DNA of 64,000 bases from Lachnospiraceae bacterium (lineage in GTDB: Bacteria > Bacillota > Clostridia > Lachnospirales > Lachnospiraceae), in the NCBI GenBank assembly GCA_017553505.1, contig JAFZLD010000010.1, positions 124,001-188,000 of the forward strand, written 5' to 3'. Position 1 is the first letter of the stretch. Each line of letters opens with the position of its first letter. The notes under the pieces were generated by a model. It ran no database searches, was not told the origin of the DNA, and saw only the letters and a program-made list of their open reading frames with translations. Of this stretch, positions 9,121-61,371 are shown one piece after another. The position numbers and the translations under genes were made by a program.

Positions 9121-9176
9121 GAAAAAGTTTCCATTTACTTTATTCACTTTTTTTGAGGATACATGTACAATGTAGT
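9121..9176 (+). promoter_or_regulatory. Operator copy 1 and promoter of peptide gene 1
   Basis: This is the most degenerate of five related operator sites. The half-site TTTCCATTTAC is intact at 9128-9138, while the left arm is only AGAAAAAG. Candidate -10 hexamers are TACAAT at 9166 (38 bases after TTTCCA) and TGTAGT at 9171 (43 bases after). No -35 box is seen at the right distance. A small hairpin, GTGATT with AATCAC, follows at 9191-9208 in the 5' leader. Confidence 0.55.
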
Positions 9177-9231
9177 TGTTGTAGGAAATAGTGATTTGAG
9201 ATAATCACAGAAATAGGAGGCACTTTGGGGT

Positions 9232-9420
9232 ATGGGAAACCGTAATCTTTTTAAAATGGCCAAGACAGTGCTTGCAGTAGTCCTGGCCATCATGGTTATT
9301 CTTCCTCCCACCTTGGGAAGACCCCTCGGGGGTAAGCCCGTAGGCGGAAGCACAATCGGTGGTACACCTATCGTCTATAGCGTCAATGGTGACGACGGAG
9401 ATGAATACAATTACCACTGA
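9232..9420 (+). CDS. Short secreted peptide 1, candidate signalling peptide precursor
   Basis: This 62-residue peptide has a Sec-type leader: a basic start, then TVLAVVLAIMVILPPTLG. The remainder is Gly-rich (GG at three places between residues 32 and 45) and ends in an acidic, Tyr-containing tail (VNGDDGDEYNYH). The leader core KTxLxxxxxxMVxLPxTxG is shared with peptide 2 at 12906, although the tails differ, so the two are likely diverged copies. AGGAGG lies 11 bases before the ATG, the same distance as in peptide 2. The gene faces the double-HTH regulator at 9497-11389 and is preceded by operator copy 1. It has no Cys and no modification enzyme nearby, so a lanthipeptide is unlikely. By analogy with RRNPP systems (PlcR-PapR, Rgg-SHP) a processed C-terminal piece may bind the regulator. 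That role is inferred. Confidence 0.75.
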   Translation: MGNRNLFKMAKTVLAVVLAIMVILPPTLGRPLGGKPVGGSTIGGTPIVYSVNGDDGDEYNYH

Positions 9421-9439
9421 TTTCTTCAACGAGAATCTG

Positions 9440-9475
9440 AAAGAAGGTGAGTCGTCGCAGCTCACCTTCTTTTAG
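9440..9475 (+). terminator. Terminator of peptide gene 1
   Basis: AAAGAAGGTGAG pairs with CTCACCTTCTTT (12 bases) around a nine-base loop and runs into TTTTA. It lies between the convergent peptide and regulator genes and may serve both strands. Confidence 0.85.
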
Positions 9476-9496
9476 TTTGTTCCTATAAATTACAAA

Positions 9497-11389
9497 TTAA
9501 ACTTCAACGTCAAACTGGCGTTTAATCTCTGAGAGCAAATAGTCTCTTCTTGTATAAAGCCCCATCAGCATAAAATAACCGGCTGCTATTCTGGCGTGAA
9601 TAGTCATCTCACGATACTTATGCAACTCTCCGCATGCTTGTGATGTGTAGAAAAAGAAATCGGCAGCAGAGCCGGAACTCTTCAGCATAAATTCATCCTT
9701 AATTCTCGAGAACTCTTCAATAATCGTATCGAATTTGTCTAAATTGTAAAGATACTTAAAATGCATTCTGAAAGACAAAAGTAAGGAGTTACTTTTGTAC
9801 CTAGGGGTAATAAAAGGTTGCTCGGCATAAGCGCACAAAATGTCGTTTATTTCTTTGGCATCATCAAAACGTTTAGCTTTGATCGCATTCATACAGATAC
9901 CGTTGAGAATTGAAATCTCAATCCATGAAAACCGCTTTTGAGGTAGTGTCTTAATGTCAAAATCGGGAATGGAAATTTTAATTGAGTCAAGTAATGCTTT
10001 GTCACGCTCATAAGAGGTGTAGTTGGGGTTGTTCAAAAACGACAAGCATAACTGTCTTATCGCGGGTTCATCGGATTTAATACCTTCATTAATGATGTTG
10101 GTGGCCTCTTTGTCTGTAATGGCCCCCTGCAGTTGCTTAGCAATAAGGAAATTCTTATGGCGCCAATAGTCCGATTCGGAAGTGTCTCCATAGAATACAA
10201 AATCTCTCTCGGAATATCCCAAACGGTTAAGTAATGCCTCGGCAAGATATATGCTGGGCGCTTGCTTTTTGTTCTCTATCTTGGACAGCTTGGAAACGCT
10301 GCACAATCCATCACACAATACACTCATGGGAACGCGCTGCTCAAATCTTAACGCACCGATGAGCGAACCAAGCGTGATAGCATCCTCGTCATCCGGGTCG
10401 ATGGTTCCGTCTGACAAACGCCACAAATCAGCCTCCATGCTGAAAGGAGTCAGTTCAATCTTCCCAGGATCCTCGACATCAAGCAAATTCGCGGGAACAT
10501 TCAGGCTATGGAGCATTCCCTTTAATATGGGCACATAATTGCACTCAAGATGCGATGCCAGAGAAAGCAAATATAGCAACTCATTTCCGACATTTGAGTT
10601 ATCGACACAAAAATCATTAATGGCCTTTAAAATCACGATTTCCAGCTTGAAAGGCTCGATATAATACTCATACGCTATGGCGGAGGCAATATCAGACTGT
10701 TCCTTGGCCTTGATATACTCCTTATTGCAAAAGAAAAACTTTGAAGACGTAAAATGCCACAACGCTTTGATATAAGCGGTATATGAGTCATCAATCAAAC
10801 TGTCGTCTATGATCATTTGAAGCCCGTTTATAAGCTTTTCGGCTTCTTCAAATCTTTCGGTATTGATGTAGATGTGAGCCATCAAAAAGATGATTTCACA
10901 ATCAACCGATGATAAAAAGGTATTTTCCAGATTGGCGGGATCAAATTCGGGCTGGGTCAAATCGAGGGCTGAGGTCAGCACATCCAACAGCTCGGAATAG
11001 TCGCCTGCATAAGTCAAATATTTGATACGTGCGTAGAAATACAATGCCTCCTGATAATAGAGCTTGTTACCGCCGTAGTTGCATTGCTTAAGCTTAAAAA
11101 GCTCATCGTATGCAAGCAATAAGCAGTTTTTCTCTGTATAAAGACGCACATTCTTAAGAAGCATGTATGCATCGAAGTCTTTACGGTTCTTAAAAAGAGG
11201 GTATGCGGCACTGGGCTCCCCGGCTCTTTTCATTAAAGCCTGGAAGGTAGAAGAGCTCACACCGAGCTTGCCGTTCTCGATATTGCACAAAGAAACCAGG
11301 GAACAAATACCAAAGGACATCTGTTCCTGCGTAAGACCTGCCCGAAGACGGGCTTCTTTAATTATAGTTCCTGCGTTTCTTATGCCCAT
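9497..11389 (-). CDS. Double-HTH, TPR-like peptide-responsive regulator 1 (RRNPP-like)
   Basis: This 630-residue cytoplasmic regulator has an XRE-type helix-turn-helix at residues 5-60 (IIKEARLRAGLTQEQMSFG, then LCNIENGKLG). About 270 residues of paired helices with TPR-like spacing follow. A second XRE-like HTH sits near residues 330-385 (GALRFEQRVPMSVLCDGL, then LSKIENKKQAP), and more helical repeats run to the end. One DNA-binding domain plus TPR is the norm for RRNPP receptors (PlcR, Rgg, PrgX), and two HTH domains in one chain is unusual. It is a close paralogue of the protein at 13306-15195, with long identical runs such as LAEALLNRLGYSERDF. It converges on peptide gene 1 and is transcribed from operator copy 2, so autoregulation is likely. 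No Opp importer is in the window. Confidence 0.85.
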   Translation of the reverse strand: MGIRNAGTIIKEARLRAGLTQEQMSFGICSLVSLCNIENGKLGVSSSTFQALMKRAGEPSAAYPLFKNRKDFDAYMLLKNVRLYTEKNCLLLAYDELFKLKQCNYGGNKLYYQEALYFYARIKYLTYAGDYSELLDVLTSALDLTQPEFDPANLENTFLSSVDCEIIFLMAHIYINTERFEEAEKLINGLQMIIDDSLIDDSYTAYIKALWHFTSSKFFFCNKEYIKAKEQSDIASAIAYEYYIEPFKLEIVILKAINDFCVDNSNVGNELLYLLSLASHLECNYVPILKGMLHSLNVPANLLDVEDPGKIELTPFSMEADLWRLSDGTIDPDDEDAITLGSLIGALRFEQRVPMSVLCDGLCSVSKLSKIENKKQAPSIYLAEALLNRLGYSERDFVFYGDTSESDYWRHKNFLIAKQLQGAITDKEATNIINEGIKSDEPAIRQLCLSFLNNPNYTSYERDKALLDSIKISIPDFDIKTLPQKRFSWIEISILNGICMNAIKAKRFDDAKEINDILCAYAEQPFITPRYKSNSLLLSFRMHFKYLYNLDKFDTIIEEFSRIKDEFMLKSSGSAADFFFYTSQACGELHKYREMTIHARIAAGYFMLMGLYTRRDYLLSEIKRQFDVEV

Positions 11390-11422
11390 AGTTCCCTCTA
11401 CAATTCATTCCCCTGTGAAAAA

Positions 11423-11530
11423 ATAATATCATAAAAACCCGATTTGTGCGACAAATTTAATGTAAATGGAAAGAAAATTTTCCATTTAGCGGGGTTCAAA
11501 AAATAATCAAACTGTAATCTAATTATAGTA
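11423..11530. promoter_or_regulatory. Operator copy 2 with divergent promoters
   Basis: The inverted repeat TAAATGGAAA-N6-TTTCCATTTA spans 11463-11488. On the plus strand GGGTTC starts 13 bases after the first T of TTTCCA, and a -10-like TATAGT lies at 11524 (45 bases after). On the minus strand a -10-like TATTAT lies exactly 44 bases after the opposite TTTCCA (11428 down to 11423), leading to regulator 1. No -35 box is visible on either side, which fits activator-dependent divergent promoters. Confidence 0.8.
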
Positions 11531-11569
11531 TAGAAAGTATCGGAATAGGAATACAGGAGGGGAATAAAT

Positions 11570-11893
11570 ATGTTGGCAGTCATCAGTTTGAGCGCAAGCT
11601 GTTTGCTGTGCGCGTTGGTCTTTTTCTTCATGACGGTTATCGGCGAAAAATACGGCAAGCCTATATGCTTCCGGCGCGGCGACGGTTCGCTTGGCGACAA
11701 GATTAAAGACATACCTTGCTACAATGCCGACATGTCGGTCCTTTACAGAGTGTGGGCAGCGGCGTGGATGATTATAGCTTTGCTTGCATTGTTTTTCCCG
11801 AGAGTCGGGTTGGTGCTTGCTTTGACTAACCTTTTCGCCGGACTGTATATCATATATCACTTCTACAAGAGAATAGTAAGAAAATATTCGTAA
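11570..11893 (+). CDS. Small membrane protein (DUF3784-like)
   Basis: This 107-residue protein has an N-terminal membrane helix (LSASCLLCALVFFFMTVIG), a short polar loop of about 40 residues, and two closely spaced hydrophobic stretches (AAAWMIIALLALFFPRVG and LVLALTNLFAGLYIIYHF) before a basic end. The pattern recalls DUF3784-type small membrane proteins of Firmicutes, whose function is unknown. AGGAGGGG precedes the ATG. It is transcribed away from regulator 1 under operator copy 2 and is closed by a terminator, so it should be a direct member of the same regulon. An accessory role in peptide processing or immunity is possible, but nothing in the sequence shows it. Confidence 0.7.
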   Translation: MLAVISLSASCLLCALVFFFMTVIGEKYGKPICFRRGDGSLGDKIKDIPCYNADMSVLYRVWAAAWMIIALLALFFPRVGLVLALTNLFAGLYIIYHFYKRIVRKYS

Positions 11894-11934
11894 ATCAGCG
11901 TAAGATTATATTTATAAATCATTAATTTCGAAAG

Positions 11935-11965
11935 ATACTCCTTGTTAACCGGGGAGTATTTTTTT
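11935..11965 (+). terminator. Rho-independent terminator
   Basis: ATACTCC and GGAGTAT form a seven-base stem with an 11-base loop and a run of seven T, after the small membrane protein gene. Confidence 0.8.
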
Positions 11966-12004
11966 AGAATGTAAGTACAATGTAACATAAGGGGTAATCA
12001 ATCT

Positions 12005-12658
12005 ATGGCTTACACAATGACGCATATCTATATAGCCGAGGCGGTAGCCGAGCGACTTGGGGGGATTAAGGACTATCCTACCTACATTCTCGGATCGATC
12101 GCCCCCGACGCGGTTCACGCAAGCGACACCTACGTAGTCTCGGACAAAGAAAGGAGCCATCTCTTTGTTGAAGGCCTGCACTGGGGCAAGGTATCAAACT
12201 CCGGACACGTAGATTTGTGGGAGAACAGCATAAAAGCGTTCAAGGAGTCGGTCGGAGACAAGTATGATAAGGACTTTGTGCTGGGATACCTGGTACATCT
12301 ATATACAGACGTATACAGCAGCATGAATTTCTTCTATCCTTTCATGCGCTCCATAAAGGGAGATTTTGACAAGGAGCGGGAACACTTTCTCAAAGAAAAC
12401 TTTGGCTATAACTATTATCTGTATCGCGAATTTAATAAGAGAGACAATCTCAAAGTAATACTAAACTCAGCCAAAGCAATAACATTGGATGGCATAATTG
12501 ATAAAGAAATAATAGAAAGCAGGATAAAGAAGCTCTTTGAACAGGAATTTGTTGAAAGAGACATTTCAGATATAGATGAATACACAATCTGCACCCATGA
12601 AGCGATGGATAAACTGATAAAAAGTGGGAGCGATTATGTAATAGAAAAGTTGTGTTAA
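12005..12658 (+). CDS. Zinc-dependent phospholipase C-like protein
   Basis: This 217-residue protein has the pattern of the Zn_dep_PLPC family: an N-terminal MTHIYIAEAVAERLG, then YILGSIAPDAVHAS, an RSHLF motif, and a central FVLGYLVHLYTDVY with the His and Asp expected as metal ligands. Members are metal-dependent hydrolases, but many are of unknown substrate. There is no signal peptide, so it is probably cytoplasmic. The start ATG lies after AAGGGGTAATC, a modest ribosome site. It follows the terminator of the previous gene and has its own terminator, so it seems to be a single-gene transcript caught between the two regulatory modules. A link to the peptide system is not shown. Confidence 0.72.
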   Translation: MAYTMTHIYIAEAVAERLGGIKDYPTYILGSIAPDAVHASDTYVVSDKERSHLFVEGLHWGKVSNSGHVDLWENSIKAFKESVGDKYDKDFVLGYLVHLYTDVYSSMNFFYPFMRSIKGDFDKEREHFLKENFGYNYYLYREFNKRDNLKVILNSAKAITLDGIIDKEIIESRIKKLFEQEFVERDISDIDEYTICTHEAMDKLIKSGSDYVIEKLC

Positions 12659-12687
12659 TAATTTCATTAATTGTAATTGTTTAAAAT

Positions 12688-12721
12688 AACTGTGTGGCTG
12701 AAAAAGTTGCACAGTTTTTTT
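12688..12721 (+). terminator. Rho-independent terminator
   Basis: AACTGTG and CACAGTT form the stem, followed by eight T, after the hydrolase gene. Confidence 0.78.
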
Positions 12722-12783
12722 GTCGGAAAAAGAAGTTTTTTGTCAAAATCGCATAGTTGTATACAATAGTCGCAACATATTGT

Positions 12784-12840
12784 GATTTATTTTCCAATTA
12801 CTATGGTTCTTATTTGTGCCTCTTTTTTGTAAGATAAAAT
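12784..12840 (+). promoter_or_regulatory. Operator copy 3 and promoter of peptide gene 2
   Basis: The half-site TTTCCAATTAC begins at 12791. GGTTC follows at 12805 in the same register as in copies 2, 4 and 5. TAAAAT at 12835 starts exactly 44 bases after TTTCCA and is the likely -10. The left arm of the inverted repeat is degenerate (GATTTAT), as in copy 1. A small hairpin (GAATGA/TCATTC) lies at 12854-12869 in the leader. Confidence 0.7.
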
Positions 12841-12905
12841 TGTCAAAAGGAACGAATGAATAATCATTCAAAAAATGCATAAACCTAAAGGAGGTACATT
12901 AAGTT

Positions 12906-13121
12906 ATGAAAAACACACGCACACCAAAAACGGTCAAGACAGCCCTGACAGCCATTATGACCGTAATGGTAACTCTTCCCCTTACATTCGGCAATCTCGG
13001 CCCCATTACACCCTTAGGTGATGAGGATGTGGGCTACTCAGCTGAGAGCGTTATACCCGGAACAGGTGCCGGATACGCTGAACCCAACGGCGATGAAGAC
13101 GTGGGCTACGCTGCTGAGTAA
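12906..13121 (+). CDS. Short secreted peptide 2, candidate signalling peptide precursor
   Basis: This 71-residue peptide has a basic start and a Sec-like hydrophobic stretch (TALTAIMTVMVTLPLTFG) closely matching peptide 1. The mature part holds an internal repeat: GDEDVGYSAE at about residues 38-47 and GDEDVGYAAE at the very C-terminus, separated by a Gly/Pro-rich linker. Two copies of a decapeptide in one precursor would be consistent with a pheromone released twice. AAGGAGG lies 11 bases upstream of the ATG. The gene faces regulator 2 (13306-15195) and is preceded by operator copy 3. There is no Cys, and no modification enzyme is near. The signalling role is inferred from arrangement and analogy to RRNPP peptides. 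Confidence 0.78.
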   Translation: MKNTRTPKTVKTALTAIMTVMVTLPLTFGNLGPITPLGDEDVGYSAESVIPGTGAGYAEPNGDEDVGYAAE

Positions 13122-13269
13122 TTATACTCGGAACCAATGATTAAAAATATCGGCCAGGATATTTTATACATCATGCGAGTATAAATATACACTCCGAGGA
13201 GCTCTCAATCAGTGGATGAAGACTGAATGACAGAGCGAATTCGGAAGAATCCAAATAAAAACAGTTAGA

Positions 13270-13297
13270 TGGTGAGGCCAAAAGCCTCGCCATTTTT
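13270..13297 (+). terminator. Terminator of peptide gene 2
   Basis: TGGTGAGGC pairs with GCCTCGCCA (one G-T pair) over a five-base loop, followed by five T. It implies an unusually long 3' tail of about 150 bases after the peptide stop codon, in which no gene is seen. Confidence 0.85.
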
Positions 13298-13305
13298 AAT
13301 GTATG

Positions 13306-15195
13306 TTATACATCAACATTGAATTGTTCATGTATTTCTGACAATAAGTAATCTTTCCTTCTTGTGAATCCCATTATCATGAAATACCCTGCAGCGATAC
13401 GTGCGTGAGCAATCATCTTATCATAATCATGAAGCTCGCCGTAGGCTTGAGAAGAGTAGAAGAACAGATCTGCGGCAGAACCGACGCTCTTAAGCAAGAA
13501 CTCGTCATTTATCTCTTCAAGCTCTTTGATAATGTCGTGGAACCGGTTGAAGTTATACAAGTATCTGAAACGAAGCCTTTCCGATAGGAACAATGTCGCG
13601 CTCATGTACTTGGGAGTAATGAACGGCTTCTTGGCATAGGCGCGCAGGGCGTCATTTATTGCCGCGGCTTCTTTGTATTTCTTAAGTCTTATGTAGTTAG
13701 TGCAGATGCAGTTAAGAATCGTTATCTCGTTCCAGGAAAGTCTGCGCTGGCCGATAGTGGCAACGCTGAAATCGGGAATCGATATCTTAAGTGCTTCAAT
13801 AAGCGCTTCACAATTCTGCTCGGAGAAGTCGGCGCTGTTCTTAAAGAACAGACATACCTGTCGCATGGAAGGCTCATCGGATTTAAGCCCCAAATTCATT
13901 ACGGCTACAACTTCCTCGGAAGAGTGATCTCCTTGACGGTGCTTGCTGAGCAAGAAGTTCTTTTGCTTCCAGCACTCGGACTCGACGGTGTTGCCGTAGA
14001 AGATAAAGTCGCGCTCTGAATATCCCAGTCGGTTAAGTAATGCCTCCGCAAGGAAGATGTTCGGTTCCTGCTTGCGATTCTCGATCTTGGAAAGCTTGGA
14101 TACGCTGCACAGGCCGTCGCACAGGACGTTAAGCGACAAACGCTGCTCTTTTCTAAGGACGCCGATTAATGCGCCGATTGTAAGCAAATCGTCATCGAAT
14201 ATATCAAACGATCCGTCGGATAAAGCTTCGGCAGAGACTTCAAAAGAAAACTCCGACAACTTAAGCTTCTCCGGAATCGTTACATCCAAATACTTGTCGG
14301 GAACGTTCAAAGACTTTAGCAGTTCAATCAATTCGCCGAGGAATCCGCACTCGAGGTGAGATGCCAGCGAAAGCATATAGAGTAAGTCGTTCCCGTGAAG
14401 CGGTTCGCCCGCGCAATACTCATTAATTATATCGAGAAGAATAAGCTCGGTCTTGTAGGCCTCGATGTAAAACTTCTCGGAAAGGTCCTTGGCCAGTGAG
14501 GAATGTTCTTTGGCTTCGGAATACTTCTTCTGACAGAAGAGGCATTTGGAGTAAGTGAAATGGTAGAGCATTCTGACATAAGCGGTGTACTTATCATCCG
14601 CGAGAGACTTGCTTAGAGTCTTCTCGGTCTGGCGACAAATATTCTCAGCCAAATCAATCTTCCCTATATTAATGTAAACGCTCGCCATGAGCATGATGAT
14701 TTCGTAGTCAACAAACGACAAGAACTCGTTACTGAAGTTCGAAATGTCGAAATCGGGATGGGTGATTACGATGGCTTTGTTAAGCGTGTCAAGAATCGAA
14801 TCGTACTGCCCGTCATAGGTTAAGTACTTAATCCTGGCGTAGAGATACAAAGCCTCCTTGTAATAAAGCCTGATGTTACCGTAATTGGACAGCCTAAGCT
14901 GAATCAGGTCGTTGTAGGCGTGTTTCAAGCAACTCTTATCGGTATAGAGGCGAATGTTCTTAAGAAGCATGAACGCGTCGAAATCCTTGCGGTTCAAAAA
15001 AAGCGGGTATGCTTCATTGGGAGTACCGGCTTTTTTCATCAAGGCTTGGAAAGTAGAGGGGCTGACGCCCATCTTGCCAGTCTCTATATTGCATAAAGAT
15101 GCAAGAGAACATACCCCAAACGATAGCTGTTCCTGAGTAAGACCCGCTTGTAATCGGGCCTCTTTGATTATGGTTCCCGAATCTCTGATACCCAT
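13306..15195 (-). CDS. Double-HTH, TPR-like peptide-responsive regulator 2 (RRNPP-like)
   Basis: This 629-residue paralogue of the protein at 9497-11389 has the same layout: an N-terminal XRE helix-turn-helix (IIKEARLQAGLTQEQLSFG, LCNIETGKMG), TPR-like helices, a second XRE-like HTH near residues 330-385 (GVLRKEQRLSLNVLCDGL, LSKIENRKQEP), then further helical repeats. The two HTH domains are the best conserved parts between the copies. The helical regions differ more, as expected if each recognises its own peptide. It converges on peptide gene 2 and is read from the minus-side promoter of operator copy 4. GGAGGGCG lies just before the ATG. Alternative readings, such as a phage-type regulator, are less likely given the paired peptide and shared operator. 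Confidence 0.85.
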   Translation of the reverse strand: MGIRDSGTIIKEARLQAGLTQEQLSFGVCSLASLCNIETGKMGVSPSTFQALMKKAGTPNEAYPLFLNRKDFDAFMLLKNIRLYTDKSCLKHAYNDLIQLRLSNYGNIRLYYKEALYLYARIKYLTYDGQYDSILDTLNKAIVITHPDFDISNFSNEFLSFVDYEIIMLMASVYINIGKIDLAENICRQTEKTLSKSLADDKYTAYVRMLYHFTYSKCLFCQKKYSEAKEHSSLAKDLSEKFYIEAYKTELILLDIINEYCAGEPLHGNDLLYMLSLASHLECGFLGELIELLKSLNVPDKYLDVTIPEKLKLSEFSFEVSAEALSDGSFDIFDDDLLTIGALIGVLRKEQRLSLNVLCDGLCSVSKLSKIENRKQEPNIFLAEALLNRLGYSERDFIFYGNTVESECWKQKNFLLSKHRQGDHSSEEVVAVMNLGLKSDEPSMRQVCLFFKNSADFSEQNCEALIEALKISIPDFSVATIGQRRLSWNEITILNCICTNYIRLKKYKEAAAINDALRAYAKKPFITPKYMSATLFLSERLRFRYLYNFNRFHDIIKELEEINDEFLLKSVGSAADLFFYSSQAYGELHDYDKMIAHARIAAGYFMIMGFTRRKDYLLSEIHEQFNVDV

Positions 15196-15225
15196 AACGC
15201 CCTCCTAATATCACTCCACAGAAAG

Positions 15226-15331
15226 AATATATCACATTCTCGCACAAATAGCCACAAATTTGAGGTAATTGGAAAAAAACTTTCCAAATAACAGGGTTCT
15301 GAATGAAGCGGATTTATCGAATAATTATATC
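15226..15331. promoter_or_regulatory. Operator copy 4 with divergent promoters
   Basis: TGGAAA-N5-TTTCCA lies at 15270-15286 within TAATTGGAAA and TTTCCAAATA. GGGTTC follows at 15294 on the plus strand. The plus-side -10 candidate is TATATC at 15326, 45 bases after TTTCCA. The minus-side -10 is TATATT (15231 down to 15226), exactly 44 bases after the opposite TTTCCA, leading to regulator 2. No -35 boxes are visible. Confidence 0.82.
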
Positions 15332-15427
15332 AGAATCCAACAACAATATAAGAAGCACATACATAGTAAGAACAATAGTCACTATTTAAAGAGTTGGATG
15401 AAACGTCACAGGAAGGAGAAGAGAAAA

Positions 15428-16309
15428 ATGGATAAAAATAAGAAGAAAATCAGAATAGCGGATTTACATACACATACAACTGCCTCAAGCGGCAACTTAA
15501 CTCCCGGCGAACTCGTTAAGCTTGCGAAGAAAAACGGATTATACGCTTTGGCAATTACCGACAACGATACGCTTAAGGGAATCAAGGAACTCATGGACGC
15601 GGGTGAGGATTTCGGAATCGAGTTAATCCCCGGTGTGGAGATGTCAGTTTCATCCGACCCCGATATGCAAATCCTCGGATTGTTCGTAGACCCGAACAAT
15701 GAAGAACTTAACAGAATCCTCGACAACACACAGGATCAAAAGCAGAGGTTCCTCGCAAGAGCGATTAAGCAGCTTGAGAAGCACGAAGTAAGAGTCGACA
15801 TGGCAGAGATTATAAAAAGAAAGATTTCTTCCATAAATGAATTGATCGACTACCTTACCGAGATAAAAGTATTCGCAACGGCAAGCGAAGGAAGAGCATT
15901 CTTCGGAAGACTCTACTTCGAATGGAAATGCGAACTGCCGAGTCCCCAGAAGTGCTTCGAGACAATCCACAGAGCAGACGGCCTCGCGATTCTTGCATAT
16001 CCCCTGGTACTCGGATTAAACGACGATGATCTTAAGAACCTTCTTTTGCAGCTTAAGAAAAAAGGACTCGACGGAATCGAAGTCAACCATCCGGGACATT
16101 CGGAAGAATACAAAGAAATGCTTGTGGGATACGCCAAAGAGCTTGACCTCCTCGTAAGCGGAGGAAGCGACTTCGGAAGAAAGCCTTACATAGACGAGCT
16201 TCCCGTAGCGGATATCAAAACCGGAGTTGCATACGAACTGGTTGAAGAAATGAAGAGACAAATAGCCGGTTACAAAAACGACATGGATGCAATGAGAACG
16301 TTTGATTAG
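15428..16309 (+). CDS. PHP-domain phosphoesterase
   Basis: This 293-residue protein of the PHP superfamily belongs to the TrpH/YciV-like group. The N-terminal DLHTHTTASSG gives the first metal-binding His pair. It is followed by LAITDNDTL, GIELIPGVEMS, a C-terminal GIEVNHPGHSEE and VSGGSDFG, together a full PHP metal centre. Relatives act on nucleotides or RNA 5' ends, and the substrate here is unknown. The frame is open back to 15269, but GGAAGGAG sits nine bases before the ATG at 15428 and the PHP fold starts right there, so the short start is chosen. It is transcribed from operator copy 4, divergent from regulator 2, and lies directly upstream of the biosynthetic operon. It may act on a signalling or precursor molecule. 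Confidence 0.85.
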   Translation: MDKNKKKIRIADLHTHTTASSGNLTPGELVKLAKKNGLYALAITDNDTLKGIKELMDAGEDFGIELIPGVEMSVSSDPDMQILGLFVDPNNEELNRILDNTQDQKQRFLARAIKQLEKHEVRVDMAEIIKRKISSINELIDYLTEIKVFATASEGRAFFGRLYFEWKCELPSPQKCFETIHRADGLAILAYPLVLGLNDDDLKNLLLQLKKKGLDGIEVNHPGHSEEYKEMLVGYAKELDLLVSGGSDFGRKPYIDELPVADIKTGVAYELVEEMKRQIAGYKNDMDAMRTFD

Positions 16310-16324
16310 AATACATAGTATTTA

Positions 16325-16350
16325 GGGGCTTGCAGCCATAAGCGAGCCCC
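16325..16350 (+). terminator. Hairpin after the PHP gene, weak terminator
   Basis: GGGGCTTGC pairs with GCGAGCCCC (one G-T pair) over an eight-base loop. It is followed by GACCTCCC rather than a T run, so termination may be incomplete and read-through into the biosynthetic operon is possible. Confidence 0.45.
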
Positions 16351-16374
16351 GACCTCCCTCCTTAAAGAACTTGA

Positions 16375-16441
16375 GGTAAATGGAAAAAATGTTTCCACTT
16401 AGTGGGGTTAAGAAAGGGAGCACAAAATTTTAACATATAAG
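16375..16441 (+). promoter_or_regulatory. Operator copy 5 and promoter of the polyketide/NRPS operon
   Basis: TAAATGGAAA-N5-TTTCCACTTA spans 16377-16401. GGGGTT follows at 16404-16409 in the same register as in the other copies. TATAAG at 16436 starts exactly 44 bases after TTTCCA and is the likely -10. No -35 box is visible. Unlike copies 2 and 4, the minus side has no -10-like hexamer at 44 bases, which fits a one-way promoter. This site ties the biosynthetic genes to the two peptide-regulator modules. Confidence 0.8.
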
Positions 16442-16503
16442 TATAAAGCAGATCTGTAAAAACAAATACAAAGAAACAACAAAAATAAAAAGAGGAAATG
16501 GCT

Positions 16504-18132
16504 ATGAGCGAAGAATTCAGAATATGCGGAAAATGCAAAGCAGAGATTGCAAACTCCGTACTCGAGAAAAACGGCTCGATCTGTCCCGAGTGCGGTAACT
16601 ACTTAAGCCTGGATGCATTCAAAAGAATAGAGATGATTGCCGATGAAGATTCCTTTAAGAGATGGAGCAACGATGAGAACTTCTCAAATCCTTTGAATGA
16701 CGAGTTATACGAGCAGGTTTTCAACAAAGCAAGAAATAAGCATTCATTAAACGATGCAATCATTGACGGCGAAATCACCATCGGAGGAGTGAGAACGGCA
16801 ATCGGCGTCATGGACACAAGATTTATGATGGCCAGCATGGGACACATCGTGGGAGAAAGGGTAACAAGAATATTTGAGACAGCTACCAGAAAGAAACTCC
16901 CGGTTATCCTCTTCTGTTGCTCGGGTGGAGCAAGAATGCAGGAAGGCATGATAGCCCTCATGCAGATGGAGAAGACGGCAGCGGCGGTTAAACGCCACAG
17001 CGACGCAGGACTTCTTTACATCTCGGTACTTACCAATCCCACCATGGGAGGCGTAACCGCAAGCTTTGCGACACTTGCAGACGTAATACTTGCTGAGAAA
17101 GGCGCGATGATCGGATTTGCCGGAGCAAGAGTAATTGAACAGAACACCGGCAAGAAGCTTCCTTCGGGATTCCAGACAGCGCAGTTCCAGAGAGATCACG
17201 GCTTCGTGGATATGGTGGTCGACAGATACGACATGAAGGAGACACTTAACAGAATCATCAAGCTCCATCAGAAGCCTCACAAGATTTATTACATGGTCCA
17301 GGGAAGAATCATTACCGAAGACGACATCAGAGTTAAGAAATACGTCGAAAGAACACCCTGGGAAAGAGTTCAGATAGCAAGATCCATCAACAGACCCACC
17401 AGCATGGATTACATCAACAATCTGTTCTCTGAATTTATAGAACTCAGCGGAGACAGAGCAGGTAGCGACGATCACGCGGTAATCGGCGGACTTGCTTCGA
17501 TAAACGGATTTCCGGTGACGGTCATAGGTCATCAAAAAGGCAAAGAATCAATGGAAGATGCAACCTACCGAAACTGGGGAATGCCTTCACCGCAGGGATA
17601 CAGAAAGGCTATGAGACTTGCAAAGCAGGCAGAAAAGTTCAAACGCCCAATTATATTCTTTATTGATACAATCGGGGCCGCCTGTGGGCAGGAAGCCGAA
17701 GAAGACGGGCAGGGAACGGCAATCGCCGAGCTCCTTATGGAGATGAGTACATTAAAGACTCCCACCCTCTCAATTGTAATCGGTGAAGGCGGAAGCGGCG
17801 GCGCACTTGCTTTAGGTATTGCCAACGAGGTCTGGATGCTTGAAAACTCGGTTTACTCAGTAATTACTCCCGAAAGTTACGCAAGCATTCTTTGGAAGGA
17901 CAACTCCAAGTTCGAGCAGGCAGCCAACCAGATGAAGCTTGAGGCGAGAGACTTGTTTAACTTAAAGGTCATCGACAAGATCATCTACGAAGATGAACCT
18001 GTAACCAAAAGCAACATGGCAACCATTTGCGCAGAACTTAAATACGAAATAATGGGATTTTTGAATAAATACCGCAAGAAGAACGTAAACACAGTAGTTA
18101 AAGAGCGATATCAGAAGTTCAGGCAGTACTGA
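16504..18132 (+). CDS. Fused acetyl-CoA carboxylase carboxyltransferase (AccD-AccA)
   Basis: This 542-residue protein joins the beta and alpha carboxyltransferase subunits, which are usually separate. Residues 1-265 are AccD-like, with the zinc ribbon Cys8, Cys11, Cys27, Cys30 and the oxyanion stretch LFCCSGGARMQEGM. Residues 270-542 are AccA-like (GGLASINGFPVTVIGHQKG, FIDTIGAACGQEAEEDGQG, IGEGGSGGALALGIANEVWM). It should transfer CO2 from carboxybiotin to acetyl-CoA, giving malonyl-CoA for the operon's own synthase. Biotin carboxylase and biotin carrier genes are not in the cluster and must come from elsewhere. The start at 16504 is preferred over 16498 because AGAGGAAA then has proper spacing. 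It is the first gene after operator copy 5. Confidence 0.92.
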   Translation: MSEEFRICGKCKAEIANSVLEKNGSICPECGNYLSLDAFKRIEMIADEDSFKRWSNDENFSNPLNDELYEQVFNKARNKHSLNDAIIDGEITIGGVRTAIGVMDTRFMMASMGHIVGERVTRIFETATRKKLPVILFCCSGGARMQEGMIALMQMEKTAAAVKRHSDAGLLYISVLTNPTMGGVTASFATLADVILAEKGAMIGFAGARVIEQNTGKKLPSGFQTAQFQRDHGFVDMVVDRYDMKETLNRIIKLHQKPHKIYYMVQGRIITEDDIRVKKYVERTPWERVQIARSINRPTSMDYINNLFSEFIELSGDRAGSDDHAVIGGLASINGFPVTVIGHQKGKESMEDATYRNWGMPSPQGYRKAMRLAKQAEKFKRPIIFFIDTIGAACGQEAEEDGQGTAIAELLMEMSTLKTPTLSIVIGEGGSGGALALGIANEVWMLENSVYSVITPESYASILWKDNSKFEQAANQMKLEARDLFNLKVIDKIIYEDEPVTKSNMATICAELKYEIMGFLNKYRKKNVNTVVKERYQKFRQY

Positions 18133-18136
18133 GCTG

Positions 18137-18198
18137 GAATAAGTCCAAGGGACTTATTCGAAAGCGACCGATAATAAAGCGCTTTGGCGGTTTATTAT
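18137..18198 (+). other. Two back-to-back hairpins between accDA and the PPTase gene
   Basis: GAATAAGTCC/GGACTTATTC (18137-18159, three-base loop) is a perfect ten-base stem without a T run. Then ATAATAAA/TTTATTAT (18171-18198) encloses an inner CGC-TTTG-GCG. They may process or stabilise the mRNA or lower downstream expression. Confidence 0.6.
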
Positions 18199-18237
18199 AA
18201 ACAGGCTTCCAGACTTATGAAACTAAAGGCTCACCGG

Positions 18238-18915
18238 GTGAATATCTTGAACATAAAGTATTTGAATATTAAAGAAATGGACAGTATTACATACGAGTTG
18301 CTGAAAAGTGAGGCATCAAAAGAAAGGAGAGAAAAAGCCTCTAGATACGTGCATATCGAAGACGCATATCGATGTATCTGTGCCGAACAGTTGATCAGAG
18401 TATGTTACGAAGAATTCACCCGGGAGGGCTTGGTACCAAAGATTTTATACGAAAGGTATGGAAAACCTTATTTGGAGAATACGGATTGCTTCCATTTCAA
18501 CATATCACATTCCGGAGAATGGGTGGTTATAGCGTACGGAGATAAGAAAGTAGGAATTGATGTGGAAAAAGTAAGCGATGAAATGGAGGAAATCGCACCT
18601 GTTTTTTTGACCAAAGAAGAATTTAGGAAGATAGAAAATCTTGAAGCGGTCAGAAAGAACGCGCGACTGACCAAGCTTTGGACGTTAAAAGAAAGCTACT
18701 TAAAGTACAGAGGTACGGGGTTATACACGGCAATGAAAGCTTTCGGCGTCATGGATGACTTGGAGCAGTCGCAGGAACTGGGTGTGGTATTTCATACCGA
18801 AAAACTTCCCGGAAATTATTACTTATCGGTTTGCTCGGAAGATGAGCACATAGATATGCAGGAGGTAAGGCTTAAGGATCTTACAGGAAGCATCTTACAG
18901 AAGAGAGGGGCATGA
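18238..18915 (+). CDS. 4'-phosphopantetheinyl transferase, Sfp type
   Basis: About 225 residues with all Sfp-type motifs: a KPYLENTDCFHFNISHSG stretch, VGIDVEKV (Mg2+ and CoA binding), and LWTLKESYLKYRGTGL carrying the Trp and the Lys-Glu pair. It should move phosphopantetheine from CoA onto the conserved Ser of the ACP and NRPS carrier domains in this operon. The start is uncertain. GTG at 18238 has AAAGG upstream and gives the usual family N-terminus (NILNIKYLNIKEMD), whereas the frame can extend back to 18184 over the hairpin region. It sits between the carboxylase and the glycosyltransferase, and a shorter second PPTase-like protein is encoded at 20913. Confidence 0.9.
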   Translation: MNILNIKYLNIKEMDSITYELLKSEASKERREKASRYVHIEDAYRCICAEQLIRVCYEEFTREGLVPKILYERYGKPYLENTDCFHFNISHSGEWVVIAYGDKKVGIDVEKVSDEMEEIAPVFLTKEEFRKIENLEAVRKNARLTKLWTLKESYLKYRGTGLYTAMKAFGVMDDLEQSQELGVVFHTEKLPGNYYLSVCSEDEHIDMQEVRLKDLTGSILQKRGA

Positions 18916-18916
18916 A

Positions 18917-20185
18917 GTGAAGACGATTATAGTGGCATCTGCGCTTTATAACTGGGGCGAGACTCACAGGATGGTCGGTATAGGCGAAGAGCTTGAGAAA
19001 AGAGGATACAAGGTCGTATACCTCGGAGAAGGTAAATACGATTTCATGGTGGACGAAGCAAAGTTTGAACGAGCCAAGGTCCCGGGAGACGAAGAGTGGT
19101 TCACTCCCGAGCGCATCGAAAAGATGATGGACATGGACACCTACGTTAACAACTACGCTACCGCCGAGGAAATCAACCGAACCGTCAGCGCAGAAGTAGA
19201 AGTAATGAAGAAGTACAACCCCGTTATGGTGGTTACGGGCTACAGAACAACACTAAGTATATCCGCAAGGATACTTAAAGTCCCTCTGGTGTGGGTACTT
19301 TCCTCGGTAGTATCCAAGAACTTCTTTTTACGTAAGATAGATTCCTTACCTGAGAACAGCATATTAAACCGATATTTCGATAAAAACAAGATGAACCAAA
19401 ACAAAGAGGTCATGCTTGATTTCGTTAAAAAGATGTTTTCGATTTACAACGAATCATCGGCCGAATGGAACAAGGTCAACGAAATGTACGGACTTAAGAA
19501 ATTCGAAAGCGACCTGGACATTTTCGAAGGCGAATTAAACATAGCTTCCGACCCGCCGGAATTCGGCGAGAAGGGTGACGGATACAAGTACTGCGGACCG
19601 ATTTTCCATAAGAAAAAGATAGAGATGCCGGAAGTTACGGCAGATATGGATGAGAAGCCAAAGAAAAAAATCTTTATCGTTATGGGATCCTCGGGAACAA
19701 GCGAAGATTTCGAAAGAGTATTAAAAGCTCTTAAAGATCTTGACTATGAGTACTACATATCCACCACCAGGATGACAGACGACGAGAAAAAGAAATATCC
19801 CGACAACTTCCACTTTGCGGACGCCTATCCGGTATACGAGATGGCAGGCAAAGTTGACGCATGTATCACACACGGAGGCCAAGGCACCATCTACTCGGTA
19901 ATAGCGGCAGGTAAGCCCTTCGTGGGAATCCCGCTTTTCATGGAGCAGCAGTACAACTTAGAGACAATGCAAAAGAAACACTACGGCGTACTGATTCCCA
20001 AAGAGAAGGTTTCAACCGAGAGTATCAAAGAGGCGCTTGAAAAAGCCTGGAGCGACCCGGAATTTATCGAAGGCGCGAAGGCAGGCGGAGAAATCGTCAG
20101 GAAGTATTTAATCGACCCGGCATATTCGGCAGAAAGCAAGGCAGCAGACATTATTAAGGAATACCTGGATGAAAAAACTGATTGA
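18917..20185 (+). CDS. UDP-glycosyltransferase-like (GT-B, MGT family)
   Basis: This 422-residue GT-B enzyme has an N-terminal acceptor domain starting TIIVASALYNWGETHRM and a C-terminal nucleotide-sugar domain with ACITHGGQGTIYSVIAAGKP and GIPLFMEQQYN, the antibiotic-macrolide glycosyltransferase signature. It has no signal peptide or membrane segment, so it should act in the cytoplasm on the lipid or peptide intermediate or final product. The GTG start lies one base after the PPTase stop with GAGGGG in front. Its 3' end overlaps the next gene by 17 bases. Polyene clusters often carry a glycosyltransferase, and the sugar and acceptor here are unknown. A related enzyme is encoded in cluster 2 at 54157. 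Confidence 0.85.
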   Translation: MKTIIVASALYNWGETHRMVGIGEELEKRGYKVVYLGEGKYDFMVDEAKFERAKVPGDEEWFTPERIEKMMDMDTYVNNYATAEEINRTVSAEVEVMKKYNPVMVVTGYRTTLSISARILKVPLVWVLSSVVSKNFFLRKIDSLPENSILNRYFDKNKMNQNKEVMLDFVKKMFSIYNESSAEWNKVNEMYGLKKFESDLDIFEGELNIASDPPEFGEKGDGYKYCGPIFHKKKIEMPEVTADMDEKPKKKIFIVMGSSGTSEDFERVLKALKDLDYEYYISTTRMTDDEKKKYPDNFHFADAYPVYEMAGKVDACITHGGQGTIYSVIAAGKPFVGIPLFMEQQYNLETMQKKHYGVLIPKEKVSTESIKEALEKAWSDPEFIEGAKAGGEIVRKYLIDPAYSAESKAADIIKEYLDEKTD

Positions 20186-20591
20186 GAATGTAGAACTTTT
20201 CTTTTGCGACTTTGACCGAATGTCGTTGTTTAAACCCGGACGGGCTATGAGATATTTCGAAAAGGCCAGATTTGAAGTGGCCGATGCGTTAAACATATAT
20301 GAATTCTATGACCCCGAGGACGAAGTTCAGTTCCTCGTGGCCAAGATCAAATGTGAGAACAAAATACCCATAAGCTTAGATGACAGAAACGTCAGTATCG
20401 AGACGGAGATAGAAACTCCGGATGTGGGAAAGATAGTTTTTAACCAAGCGATAGTTCAGGACGGGGTAAGCAAGTTAAGTGCAAGATTCGACATTGCGGT
20501 GTGCTCAAAAAAGAAAGGCGTGCAGTACCGCTTCAACCCCGAACTTGTGGAAAGAATACGTAACTACAACATGGAAAGGAAGACGGTATAG
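20169..20591 (+). CDS. Hotdog-fold thioesterase-like protein A
   Basis: This 140-residue protein looks like the YbgC/4HBT branch of hotdog enzymes: an N-terminal FFCDFDRMSLFKPGRAMRYFEKAR corresponds to the substrate-binding helix region, and strands such as VSIETEIETPDVGKIVF follow. The catalytic Asp-x-x-Gly-x-Val pattern of classical members is altered (FDRMSLFKPG), so activity is uncertain. The gene overlaps the glycosyltransferase by 17 bases and is followed six bases later by a second hotdog gene. Both may release acyl chains from the ACP, or form a heteromer. The family call rests on pattern only. Confidence 0.6.
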   Translation: MKKLIENVELFFCDFDRMSLFKPGRAMRYFEKARFEVADALNIYEFYDPEDEVQFLVAKIKCENKIPISLDDRNVSIETEIETPDVGKIVFNQAIVQDGVSKLSARFDIAVCSKKKGVQYRFNPELVERIRNYNMERKTV

Positions 20592-20596
20592 AAAAA

Positions 20597-20923
20597 ATGG
20601 TGACCAGTGAAGAAATAGTGAACATCGATGACATCGATCCTTACGGAATGGTGCATCACTCAATTTATTTTAGATTTTACGAGCACGGAATATTTAAGTA
20701 TCTGTGCAAGGAAAAGAATCGGGACAATGTGTCATTTGTTATCAGGGAAGCGGATATGAAGTACATCTCTTCTACATTCACAGGCAACTCCCTAAAGGTA
20801 ATTACGGAGTGCAAGGGAAGCAAGGATAACAGGTACACATTCAAACAATCGATAGAAAGAAATGACAAGACAGTCAACAGTGCAAAGATTGTGGTGGATT
20901 TAGTACCAAGTTATGGAACATGA
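20597..20923 (+). CDS. Hotdog-fold thioesterase-like protein B
   Basis: This 108-residue protein carries a better thioesterase signature than its neighbour: DIDPYGMVHHSIYFRFYEHG matches the YbgC-type D-x-x-G-x-V-x-H core, with Asp as the likely catalytic residue. It is somewhat short for the family (about 130), lacking part of the last strands. The ribosome site is weak. Its end overlaps the next gene by 11 bases, so translational coupling is expected. It could hydrolyse stalled or finished acyl-ACP, or hand the chain on. Confidence 0.65.
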   Translation: MVTSEEIVNIDDIDPYGMVHHSIYFRFYEHGIFKYLCKEKNRDNVSFVIREADMKYISSTFTGNSLKVITECKGSKDNRYTFKQSIERNDKTVNSAKIVVDLVPSYGT

Positions 20924-21404
20924 ATTTGACGCAAAAGTCCGGCTGGTCAGCGTAGATTACGGAGACGAAAAAGTACCCCGGTCGGAGAAGAGTAAGAGAA
21001 TCAGAGAAAAAATAGGACCGTTAACCGATATACGATACTCGATTTCACATACGGACAAGTATTCGGTGGCTGCGATATCAAGGGACCCGGAGGTCGGCGT
21101 TGATATCGAGCATAAGAATAAGCTTAGCGGAAGAAAAGACGCCATGGACATTCTTTTTCCGAAGGATTGCAAGATACGGGACGAAGTCAGGTGGTGTCTG
21201 CACGAAGCCATAGGAAAAATGGAAGGCGACGGATTACACACGTATTACCCCATAGTGTCGACTGAGGAGTGCGAAGACGAAACGCTCCTGGCGGGATACA
21301 AAAAGGGCGACACGATATGCGAAGCAAAAGTCAAGGTACGGGAAAGCGACAAATATATGTTGGTATGGGGATACAAAAATAAACAGGAAAGGAGAAAAAC
21401 ATGA
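20913..21404 (+). CDS. Short, divergent phosphopantetheinyl transferase-like protein
   Basis: This 163-residue protein keeps the PPTase core in order: IRYSISHTDKYSVAAIS, then VGVDIEHKNKLSGR, then VRWCLHEAIGKMEGDGL. The Asp and Glu of VGVDIE are present. The usual Trp-x-x-Lys-Glu is Trp-x-Leu-His-Glu, and the N-terminal third found in Sfp is reduced. It may be a minimal AcpS-like enzyme with narrow specificity or an inactive relative. It overlaps both neighbours (11 and 4 bases), so all are made together. Two PPTase-type genes within 3 kb suggest separate carrier targets, for example the free ACP and the NRPS domains. Confidence 0.65.
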   Translation: MEHEFDAKVRLVSVDYGDEKVPRSEKSKRIREKIGPLTDIRYSISHTDKYSVAAISRDPEVGVDIEHKNKLSGRKDAMDILFPKDCKIRDEVRWCLHEAIGKMEGDGLHTYYPIVSTEECEDETLLAGYKKGDTICEAKVKVRESDKYMLVWGYKNKQERRKT

Positions 21405-22330
21405 TTTCATGCGATGCATATTACATCTCGGAGCTGGTTCCGGAAGTTTCATATGATGACGCAATCTGCACCATCGGCTTATGCAACGGAGTGTTCTGCT
21501 TAAACTACGACGGCAACAACGTATACATGGTGAAGTCAAGATACGTATCGAGTCAGGAAGAATTGCTTGAGAAGCTGGGAATCACATACGAGAAGCTCAC
21601 AATAGACGACATTTTTAAACCCGGTGTCAATTTGGAGAAAGTACTTCTTTTTCTTCCAAAGATCCTTCTTGAAAACATCGACATGCTTCACAAGGATACC
21701 AAGCAGGTGGCAATTTCACTCTCGGCATTTAAGGCAAGCGTTAAGGATGAGGACACTTTGATACTTAAGGGAATGGAGCCCGACGAAACCGAGTACGAGA
21801 TGGAAGTCACCAAGGAGCAGCTTGAAAAACTTAAGAGCTTCGAGATGAAGCCGAGCGTAGACAGCGTTTTGATAGTAAGACTTCTCGGCAGCAACTTAAA
21901 TAAAGACAAAATCAGCGAGAACATTAAAGAAAGCATGGACAACTGCCTCGCCGATTACGACGAATACGATACGGGCGACCTTCTTTGGAACGGCGGAAAG
22001 TTCGGATACACGAAGGTTTTACATATCCTTAAGAACTTCAAATCTCTTGACGAGACCGCTCAGAAGATATTCTTAGGCACACTCGTATCGGGAAGCAACT
22101 TCCTCTACAGAAAAGAGTACTGGGAAGCACTGCAAAAGAAAGATTACCTCGACCCCAAAGAAGTCAACAACCTTCGCGTGGCCGGCGGCCTCTGGAGAAA
22201 GGTAATCAGATCCGTAGTTAACTTCGTATGTTTCCATCAGGAAATCAACTGCGAAGAACTTGAAAACGTAATAGAAAGAATAGCTTCGATTGAATCGGAA
22301 GTCTTTTCTTATATTAAAAACAACATTTAA
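21401..22330 (+). CDS. Unknown protein, possibly distant BtrH/DUF4872 type
   Basis: This 309-residue cytoplasmic protein has no confident family. The N-terminal half shows alternating strands (GVFCLNYDGNNVYMV, TKQVAISLSAFKASV, DTLILKGMEP). The C-terminal third is helical, with LWRKVIRSVVNFVCF followed by ELENVIERIASIESEVF. That last pattern resembles the tail of the BtrH-like protein at 55372 (EWNVISCLLIKAAY then ISGRIESVFAKE), so a distant acyltransferase relation is possible. No catalytic Cys-His pair can be placed. It starts four bases before the stop of the PPTase-like gene and stops 23 bases before the ACP gene, so it is firmly part of the operon and may work on the ACP-bound chain. Confidence 0.5.
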   Translation: MISCDAYYISELVPEVSYDDAICTIGLCNGVFCLNYDGNNVYMVKSRYVSSQEELLEKLGITYEKLTIDDIFKPGVNLEKVLLFLPKILLENIDMLHKDTKQVAISLSAFKASVKDEDTLILKGMEPDETEYEMEVTKEQLEKLKSFEMKPSVDSVLIVRLLGSNLNKDKISENIKESMDNCLADYDEYDTGDLLWNGGKFGYTKVLHILKNFKSLDETAQKIFLGTLVSGSNFLYRKEYWEALQKKDYLDPKEVNNLRVAGGLWRKVIRSVVNFVCFHQEINCEELENVIERIASIESEVFSYIKNNI

Positions 22331-22353
22331 ACAAATTTTAGGAGGAAAACAAA

Positions 22354-22650
22354 ATGGAAAAAACACTTGAAAGGCAGATTCTTGAAATGATTATCGACAG
22401 ACTTGATCTTGAGGACGTAGACGTTGAGAACTTCGACTACGATCAGCAGATCTTCGCCACCGAAGATTGTGAAGGCCTCGGACTTGATTCCGTAGACTCA
22501 CTTGAAATCGTGGTAGGTCTTAAGAAGGACTTCGACGTAGTGGTAGACGAAGACGAAATGGATGCATTCAAGAGCATCAACACCCTTGCAGAGTACGTAA
22601 GACAGAAGCAGGCAGAGGGCAAGGAACTTGTAGGTGCAGGCGTAGAGTAA
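22354..22650 (+). CDS. Acyl carrier protein of the polyketide synthase
   Basis: This 98-residue acidic carrier has the phosphopantetheine motif GLGLDSVDSLEIVV with Ser46 as the attachment site. The LGLDSVDSLE form is typical of type II polyene and aryl-polyene ACPs rather than the housekeeping fatty-acid ACP. AGGAGG precedes the ATG with good spacing, predicting high translation. It lies just upstream of the KS pair, so it should hold the growing chain for the KS, KR, DH and transacylase of this operon and pass it to the NRPS or glycosyltransferase. Confidence 0.93.
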   Translation: MEKTLERQILEMIIDRLDLEDVDVENFDYDQQIFATEDCEGLGLDSVDSLEIVVGLKKDFDVVVDEDEMDAFKSINTLAEYVRQKQAEGKELVGAGVE

Positions 22651-22671
22651 TCGACCCGGGGGTAACAAAGA

Positions 22672-23883: not shown

Positions 23884-23895
23884 AAGGAGTAGAGA

Positions 23896-25626: not shown

Positions 25627-25630
25627 AGGA

Positions 25631-26272: not shown

Positions 26273-26295
26273 CAGACAATAATGGGTGAGGAAAC

Positions 26296-34704: not shown

Positions 34705-34719
34705 AAACAGGAGGAACCA

Positions 34720-36533: not shown

Positions 36534-36602
36534 CATAAATGTGGTGCGGGGGGCCACTCCGGAGGGCCTCTTGCGGCACGACAAAAAGGAGAGAAACATG
36601 AT

Positions 36603-37523: not shown

Positions 37524-37539
37524 GGAGGATAAAATTATT

Positions 37540-55350: not shown

Positions 55351-55371
55351 CATGTTGAGAGGAATGGCAAA

Positions 55372-56316: not shown

Positions 56317-56330
56317 GGAGAATCGGTGGG

Positions 56331-58190: not shown

Positions 58191-58223
58191 CCGGGCAAAC
58201 AGAATTTAGGGAGGTACAGAAGG

Positions 58224-61082: not shown

Positions 61083-61100
61083 TGTAGAAAGGAAAAATAT

Positions 61101-61349: not shown

Positions 61350-61371
61350 TCAAACGTAAGCGGAGGTTATC

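Follow-up and report, generated by a model that had tools for sequence, protein, structure and literature searches.

A probable palindromic operator and a family of double helix-turn-helix regulators at a biosynthetic gene cluster of a Lachnospiraceae bacterium

Operator copies and their regulator family

The window analysed here, a stretch of 64,000 nucleotides (bases 124001–188000 of contig 14 in a 3.13-Mb Lachnospiraceae genome), contains five copies of one operator at two regulator genes, R1 and R2, and at a gene cluster of polyketide synthase/non-ribosomal peptide synthetase (PKS/NRPS) type. The operator is a feature of a wider regulator family, and its copies 1 and 3 precede small open reading frames (ORFs); both points go beyond an earlier note, which had described the repeat from the letters of the window. 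We regard the regulators as probably a single-chain, double helix-turn-helix (HTH) variant of RRNPP/PlcR-type peptide signalling, with its own operator and activating the cluster. Peptide quorum sensing looks to control a PKS/NRPS-type cluster here and radical S-adenosylmethionine (SAM) clusters elsewhere.

All five copies listed in the earlier note were recovered, three as palindromes (copies 2, 4 and 5) and two as half-sites (copies 1 and 3; Table 1); the palindrome of copy 4 stood, but its start moved from 15267 to 15266. Copy 2 is an exact palindrome with a spacer of 6 bp, while copies 4 and 5 are near-palindromes with N5 and three and one mismatches, respectively; for each of them, 0 of 100 shuffles gave the like. 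The sequence TTTCCANWTANNNNGGTT occurs four times in the window, solely at copies 2–5 (0 of 100 shuffles). Across the own genome, TGGAAA-N3-9-TTTCCA has 11 matches against 5 for the reversed pattern, and four of the 11 are at regulator loci, namely the three in the window and one before R3, a further family member on contig 22.

Eleven regulator loci were compared: R1, R2, R3 and those of G007 (the sheep-rumen metagenome-assembled genome RGIG6987), G666, G306, G064, G173, G783, G681 and G771. Left out of the set are YSD2013 (Lachnospiraceae bacterium, G015), a near match to the window, and G736, as its contig duplicates the G783 one. The family members in the set are 27–64% identical to R1, with the single family regulator of G007 at 64%; that of YSD2013 is 94% identical. 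In 9 of the 11 loci GGAAA-N5-10-TTTCC stands within 250 bp upstream of the regulator. The exceptions are G783, with a half-site, and G306, with neither palindrome nor half-site there; its palindrome stands before an M16-peptidase gene instead. The same stretches hold 127 other ORFs with 150 or more amino acids (aa). Nine of these have the palindrome upstream, and seven of the nine read as cluster neighbours or targets. The strict pattern TTTCCANWTANNNGGGTT has 13 matches in 60 Lachnospiraceae genomes, 11 of them with a regulator, and the reversed pattern has six. Twelve of the 13 adjoin a family regulator gene (three each in G000, G015 and G064, two in G666, one in G007); the thirteenth, in G021, falls within an unrelated gene, by eye hypA. 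Six regulator-bearing genomes among the 60 gave no match to the strict pattern. A looser form gave five matches in G000 and G015, all at regulator loci, and one control match. The arm spacer is 5–6 bp at R1, R2, R3, G007 and G666 and 7–8 bp at G064, G173, G306, G681 and G771; it thus follows the regulator group, which would fit joint evolution of site and protein. The view of the earlier note that one operator is common to the promoters of this locus, is probably read by the adjacent regulators R1 and R2 and probably serves activation, is well supported by this co-occurrence across genomes.

The family is rare. Members were found in 3 of 18 genomes of the own genus, 4 of 397 in the family sample, 4 of 392 in the order sample (each of the four from the same family) and 5 of 79 in genus g207. 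The samples share genomes, the own genome being part of the first three. The genera of G064 (one of one genome) and G306 (one of two) yielded no members beyond those already known. Matches to R1 in a plasmid collection (one record, covering 31%) and a phage collection (three records, the best covering 51%) were partial and weak only.

The regulators of G783 and G736 lie on contigs of 16–19 kb (L028, L030) with largely the same genes. L028 carries a MobA-type relaxase, a ParA-like gene was recognized by eye on the G783/G736 contigs, and these are probably a mobilizable plasmid.

Tandem regulators and small ORFs

R1 and R2 are 59% identical, and R3 is 44% identical to R1. Each of the three has two stretches above the Pfam cut-off for HTH_3, i.e. 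XRE-type HTHs. Their N-terminal and C-terminal halves match each other in a profile comparison (probability 99.7, E 1.3e-25), so that the regulator consists of two related units in tandem. A weak match to Bacillus PlcR (profile positions 340–623, E 0.008) was found for the C-terminal half. Pfam matches to tetratricopeptide repeats (TPR) were below cut-off, and an NCBIfam scan of the regulators gave nothing near the cut-offs. A full-length model of R1 from five sequences reached a predicted local distance difference test score (pLDDT) of 53. The model of the C-terminal half (pLDDT 61) gave no Foldseek match at E ≤ 0.001 and resembles PlcR, Rap, Rgg2 and unrelated TPR proteins at similar Z; because this looser comparison mixes RRNPP receptors with other TPR proteins, the fold serves as supporting evidence only. 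The regulators measure about 627–637 aa (G783: 654 aa with the longest start), outside the 250–500 aa range of RRNPP_detector, and given this length and the tandem build we do not file them as canonical RRNPP(A) members. With four SBP_bac_5 matches above the cut-off, the own genome has candidates for an oligopeptide importer.

Four genes of about 300 aa, each with a single HTH, form two divergent pairs on contig C9 of the own genome (L009:587-5981), together with a radical-SAM-like gene (by eye) and a small ORF that ends in DDETDQYAE; a scan of this stretch gave no operator-type palindrome. We treat these single-HTH genes as distant relatives and exclude them from the family; perhaps they are an unfused form of the same system.

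An ORF of 43–71 aa with a hydrophobic start lies tail-to-tail with the regulator at 9 of the 11 loci (R1, R2, R3, G007, G666, G306, G064, G173 and G681); those of R1, R2 and R3 are termed P1, P2 and P3. An operator arm precedes seven of the nine (all but G306 and G681), as a half-site only at P1, P2, P3, G007 and G666 and as a full palindrome at G064 and G173. Near their ends several of these ORFs carry an acidic stretch: NGDDGDEYNYH in P1, GDEDVGY twice in P2, GDENDG at R3, GDEDDGYHVE in G007, GDENIGSS in G666 and DNDTELGYS in G306, whereas those of G064, G173 and G681 fit the pattern less well. The P1 frame is intact in G007: of its 40 differences from the window, 22 fall at third positions, with the N-terminus conserved and the C-terminus changed, as would suit a signal precursor whose code changes.

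Promoter geometry

Offsets are counted from the first T of TTTCCA, the right arm of the palindrome, and the score tables for −10 and −35 are approximate textbook values. For the target side, 14 sites from G000, G007, G064 and G666 were pooled, including two G007 orthologues of window sites; the YSD2013 copies were kept out. Comparison with YSD2013 was uninformative, its five intergenic regions being 95–99.5% identical to the window.

The target-side −10 score peaks at offsets 38/39 with 3.50 (mean shuffle maximum −0.06, standard deviation 0.37; 0 of 2000 reach the peak). At 44/45, where the earlier note had placed the plus-side −10, the same sites score 0.54, and that spacing is unsupported when relatives are counted in. 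The peak is the same without the two G007 orthologues (12 sites, 3.42 at 38/39, 0 of 2000), and the plain TATAAT match count over the 14 sites is 4.57, against a Markov null of 3.32 (standard deviation 0.15; 0 of 3000). The best promoter pair in 13 of the 14 sites, the exception being the small-ORF promoter of G064, combines a −35-like hexamer at +15/16, a gap of 16–18 bp and a −10 at 37–40; contrary to the earlier note, a −35 element is thus visible. These hexamers are weak or degenerate (TTCACT, TTCACA, TTCAAA and weaker forms) and overlap GGGTTC where it is present, so that the GGGTTC of the earlier note runs into a degenerate −35. Copy 1, for which no spacing had been given, fits the 38/39 geometry with TTCACT-17-TACAAT. 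Three later-found sites, scored apart, are by themselves not decisive between the two spacings.

Of 10 regulator-side sites, five have an extended −10 at 44/45 (R1, R2, G007, G666 and G783). The minus-side boxes previously placed at +44 of copies 2 and 4 (TGA-TATTAT and TGA-TATATT) are supported, with 3 of 8 further regulator-side sites at 44/45. The highest mean score on this side is at offset 12 (2.01), the operator's own tail, with 44/45 second (1.65), and G064 has an ordinary TTGACT-17-TATAAT further downstream. The spacings of 38/39 on one side and 44/45 on the other are about half a helical turn apart. A repeat centre near −59, as formerly proposed, would hold for the regulator side; on the target side it would lie near −54. 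An RNA-hairpin reading of the palindrome was set aside, since the predicted starts on the target side lie downstream of it.

Targets and biosynthetic cassette

The biosynthetic genes encode a fused carboxyltransferase, a phosphopantetheinyl transferase, a glycosyltransferase, a ketosynthase, a nitroreductase and an NRPS of 2802 aa, followed by an ABC transporter and FabD/FabZ-like genes (by eye). The 107-aa gene, the PHP-domain gene and the carboxyltransferase at the head of this PKS/NRPS-type cluster each have an operator copy upstream. The palindrome of R3 faces a radical-SAM/PqqD operon, that of G064 an M16 peptidase, a radical-SAM protein and major facilitator superfamily (MFS) transporters. 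G007 lacks, at this place, the window stretch 12425-38435, which holds P2, R2 and the cluster; the flanks lie close together there, and R1, P1 and the 107-aa gene are retained. R2/P2 therefore seem to belong to a cassette without which R1/P1 can exist; from this comparison, the stretch would look like a cassette gained or lost as a unit.

Table 1 Operator copies, promoter elements and genes in the window
Feature	Position	Strand	Basis or remark
Operator copy 1, half-site TTTCCATTTA upstream of P1	9128..9137	+	left arm matches 4/10
−35-like TTCACT, P1 promoter	9143..9148	+	offset 15
−10-like TACAAT, P1 promoter	9166..9171	+	offset 38
P1, putative 62-aa signal precursor	9232..9420	+	ORF scan, locus comparison
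R1, 630-aa tandem HTH-TPR-like regulator	9497..11389	−	domain and half-versus-half profile comparison
Extended −10 TGA-TATTAT, R1 side of copy 2	11423..11428	−	offset 44
Operator copy 2, perfect palindrome, N6	11463..11488	unstranded	palindrome scan
GGGTTCAAA containing −35-like TTCAAA (11495-11500)	11492..11500	+	promoter-pair scan
−10-like TCTAAT, copy 2	11518..11523	+	offset 39
107-aa gene divergent from R1, probable target	11570..11893	+	kept beside R1 homologue in RGIG6987
Operator copy 3, half-site TTTCCAATTA upstream of P2	12791..12800	+	left arm matches 5/10
−35-like TTCTTA, P2 promoter	12807..12812	+	offset 16
−10-like TAAGAT, P2 promoter	12830..12835	+	offset 39
P2, putative 71-aa signal precursor, GDEDVGY twice	12906..13121	+	ORF scan, locus comparison
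R2, 629-aa tandem HTH-TPR-like regulator	13306..15195	−	domain and half-versus-half profile comparison
Extended −10 TGA-TATATT, R2 side of copy 4	15226..15231	−	offset 44
Operator copy 4, palindrome, N5	15266..15290	unstranded	palindrome scan, shuffles
−35-like TTCTGA overlapping GGGTTC, copy 4	15297..15302	+	offset 16
−10-like AATAAT, copy 4	15320..15325	+	offset 39
PHP-domain phosphoesterase gene, probable target	15428..16309	+	domain match, operator copy 4
Operator copy 5, palindrome, N5	16377..16401	unstranded	palindrome scan, shuffles
−35-like TTAAGA overlapping GGGTTA, copy 5	16408..16413	+	offset 16
−10-like TAACAT, copy 5	16431..16436	+	offset 39
Biosynthetic genes	16498..38365	+	domain matches; later genes by eye

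Proposed mechanism and alternatives

In the mechanism that we propose, P1 and P2 would be exported and then trimmed to a short acidic peptide (GDEDxGY-like), which would be re-imported and bound by the TPR part of R1/R2. The peptide-loaded regulator would bind TAAATGGAAA-N5/6-TTTCCATTTA, or the TTTCCATTTA half, directly upstream of the weak −35, and help RNA polymerase to start from the −10 located 17 bp downstream of that hexamer. Output of the peptide genes would thereby rise, as a positive feedback, along with that of the divergent 107-aa gene and of the biosynthetic cluster. One chain has two HTHs, which would suit the two arms of a single palindrome. It is possible, though on balance doubtful, that the usual dimer has here become one chain whose unequal HTH-TPR units read the two arms, maybe with two peptide pockets integrating two signals, and that R1/P1 and R2/P2 share the operator in a cross-wired circuit round a transferable cassette.

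Rgg3 and PrgX are repressors released by their peptide, and R1/R2 could likewise sit on the operator when peptide-free and block transcription until peptide releases them. The operator abuts the target −35 and lies close to the regulator-side extended −10, where interference is possible, and autorepression of R1 and R2 would suit the divergent layout. The target-side palindrome, however, leaves both core elements uncovered, with its end about 6 bp upstream of the −35-like hexamer, and weak −35 elements suit activation; we consider repression unlikely. The geometry of the earlier note, an activator-dependent promoter with no −35, a target-side −10 at +44/45 and a centre near −59, is still a little less probable. 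It draws on window copies 2–5, which alone give 4.75 mean TATAAT matches at 44/45 and 4.5 at 38/39 and do not separate the two, and on the regulator-side boxes at 44/45; against it stand the pooled scores of the 14 sites and the nine sites outside the window set, with 3.22 TATAAT matches at 44/45 versus 4.56 at 38/39.

Operator and activation might also be as proposed with another ligand, the small ORFs being products or precursors, e.g. of the kind of ribosomally synthesized and post-translationally modified peptides (RiPPs), or chance. Radical-SAM genes near several family members make a modified precursor conceivable, and the small ORF is lacking at 2 of the 11 loci. Its recurrence tail-to-tail at the other nine, seven with an operator arm, the conserved frame of P1 in RGIG6987 and the PKS/NRPS type of the window cluster nevertheless make another ligand rather unlikely, even if less so than repression. 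Binding of the palindrome by an unrelated protein, or a repeat that has no regulatory role, is very improbable: 7 of the 11 TGGAAA-N3-9-TTTCCA sites of the genome lie away from regulators, but the longer operator pattern is almost confined to the neighbourhood of the regulator family and the arm spacing tracks the regulator group.

Some observations call for caution. The G783 and G771 regulator loci have no tail-to-tail small ORF of this kind. Taken singly, TATAGT at offset 45 of copy 2 and TAAAAT at offset 44 of copy 3 outscore TCTAAT and TAAGAT, and at copy 5 TATAAG (44) and TATAAA (50) score about equal to TAACAT. The bare TTTCCA/TGGAAA hexamer stands within 250 bp upstream of 36 of the 127 other ORFs; being so common, it does not by itself carry copies 1 and 3, which are supported by the longer match, the spacing of their promoter elements and their recurrence before small ORFs.

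Relation to known systems

The system would be of a known kind (RRNPP/PlcR-type), set apart by its fused double-HTH receptor and its own operator, and we assign it to no named subfamily. PlcR, Rgg and NprR are RRNPP receptors activated by re-imported peptide. PlcR-PapR of the Bacillus cereus group combines an HTH and TPR regulator, an adjoining small peptide gene and a palindromic operator before its targets, a set that the HTH-TPR-like regulators, putative precursor genes and operator here resemble. PlcR, however, is one unit of 293 aa, in contrast to two fused units of about 630 aa here, where the peptide gene is moreover tail-to-tail with the regulator. The PlcR box, TATGNAN4TNCATA, differs in sequence from the conserved element TAAATGGAAA-N5-8-TTTCCATTTA; the PlcR box itself was not searched for. 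Rgg-SHP and ComR-ComS of streptococci are cytoplasmic peptide receptors, as R1 and R2 would be. Rgg and ComR have a single HTH and respond to short hydrophobic peptides, unlike the double HTH and the acidic tails of the putative precursors found here. The RRNPP-type system of Clostridium acetobutylicum has a single-unit receptor. That system is clostridial like the present host, but its outputs, in the available part of the publication, are solvent formation and sporulation (PMC7376267).

Rgg systems have been linked to radical-SAM RiPPs in the available parts of two papers (PMC8092268, PMC13361665). According to the sections at hand of its publication, RRNPP_detector pairs a receptor with an adjoining small precursor, as would apply here, accepts receptors of 250–500 aa, was validated on a set of 285–473 aa and led to the inference that 196 biosynthetic clusters are controlled in this way; the passage on cluster-bearing families names no Lachnospiraceae, nor does 'lachnospir' occur in the main text (PMC10075063). 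Because this detector stops at 500 aa, fused receptors would be missed and more may be hidden. Double-HTH terms do not occur in the available parts of PMC12700828 and PMC9765709. A literature search on RRNPP and Lachnospiraceae gave no paper, related searches brought up no described RRNPP system of this family among the matches listed, and one on double-HTH receptors gave none of this type by title or start of abstract among the matches listed. The operator letters, in the open-licence literature, returned matches of which those listed were all unrelated by title; nothing among them contradicts the earlier note, which knew of no described operator with such a sequence. Operator, receptor and peptide together would offer a testable key to natural-product clusters of Lachnospiraceae, and a single-chain receptor lets one ask how labour is split between the two halves of a quorum sensor that is normally a dimer.

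Further observations

Proteins resembling, by eye, glycosyltransferases, asparagine synthases and AMP-binding proteins are encoded at 53201-63093 of the window, a second biosynthetic-looking stretch that has no full palindrome. The product of a gene at 12005-12658 matches a Zn-dependent phospholipase C domain, and this gene is also found beside the R1 homologue in RGIG6987. In G681 (L029:8473-16776) two MFS genes of 429 aa flank the regulator and a radical-SAM gene; they are nearly identical over the 70 residues compared, as if the region were partly duplicated.

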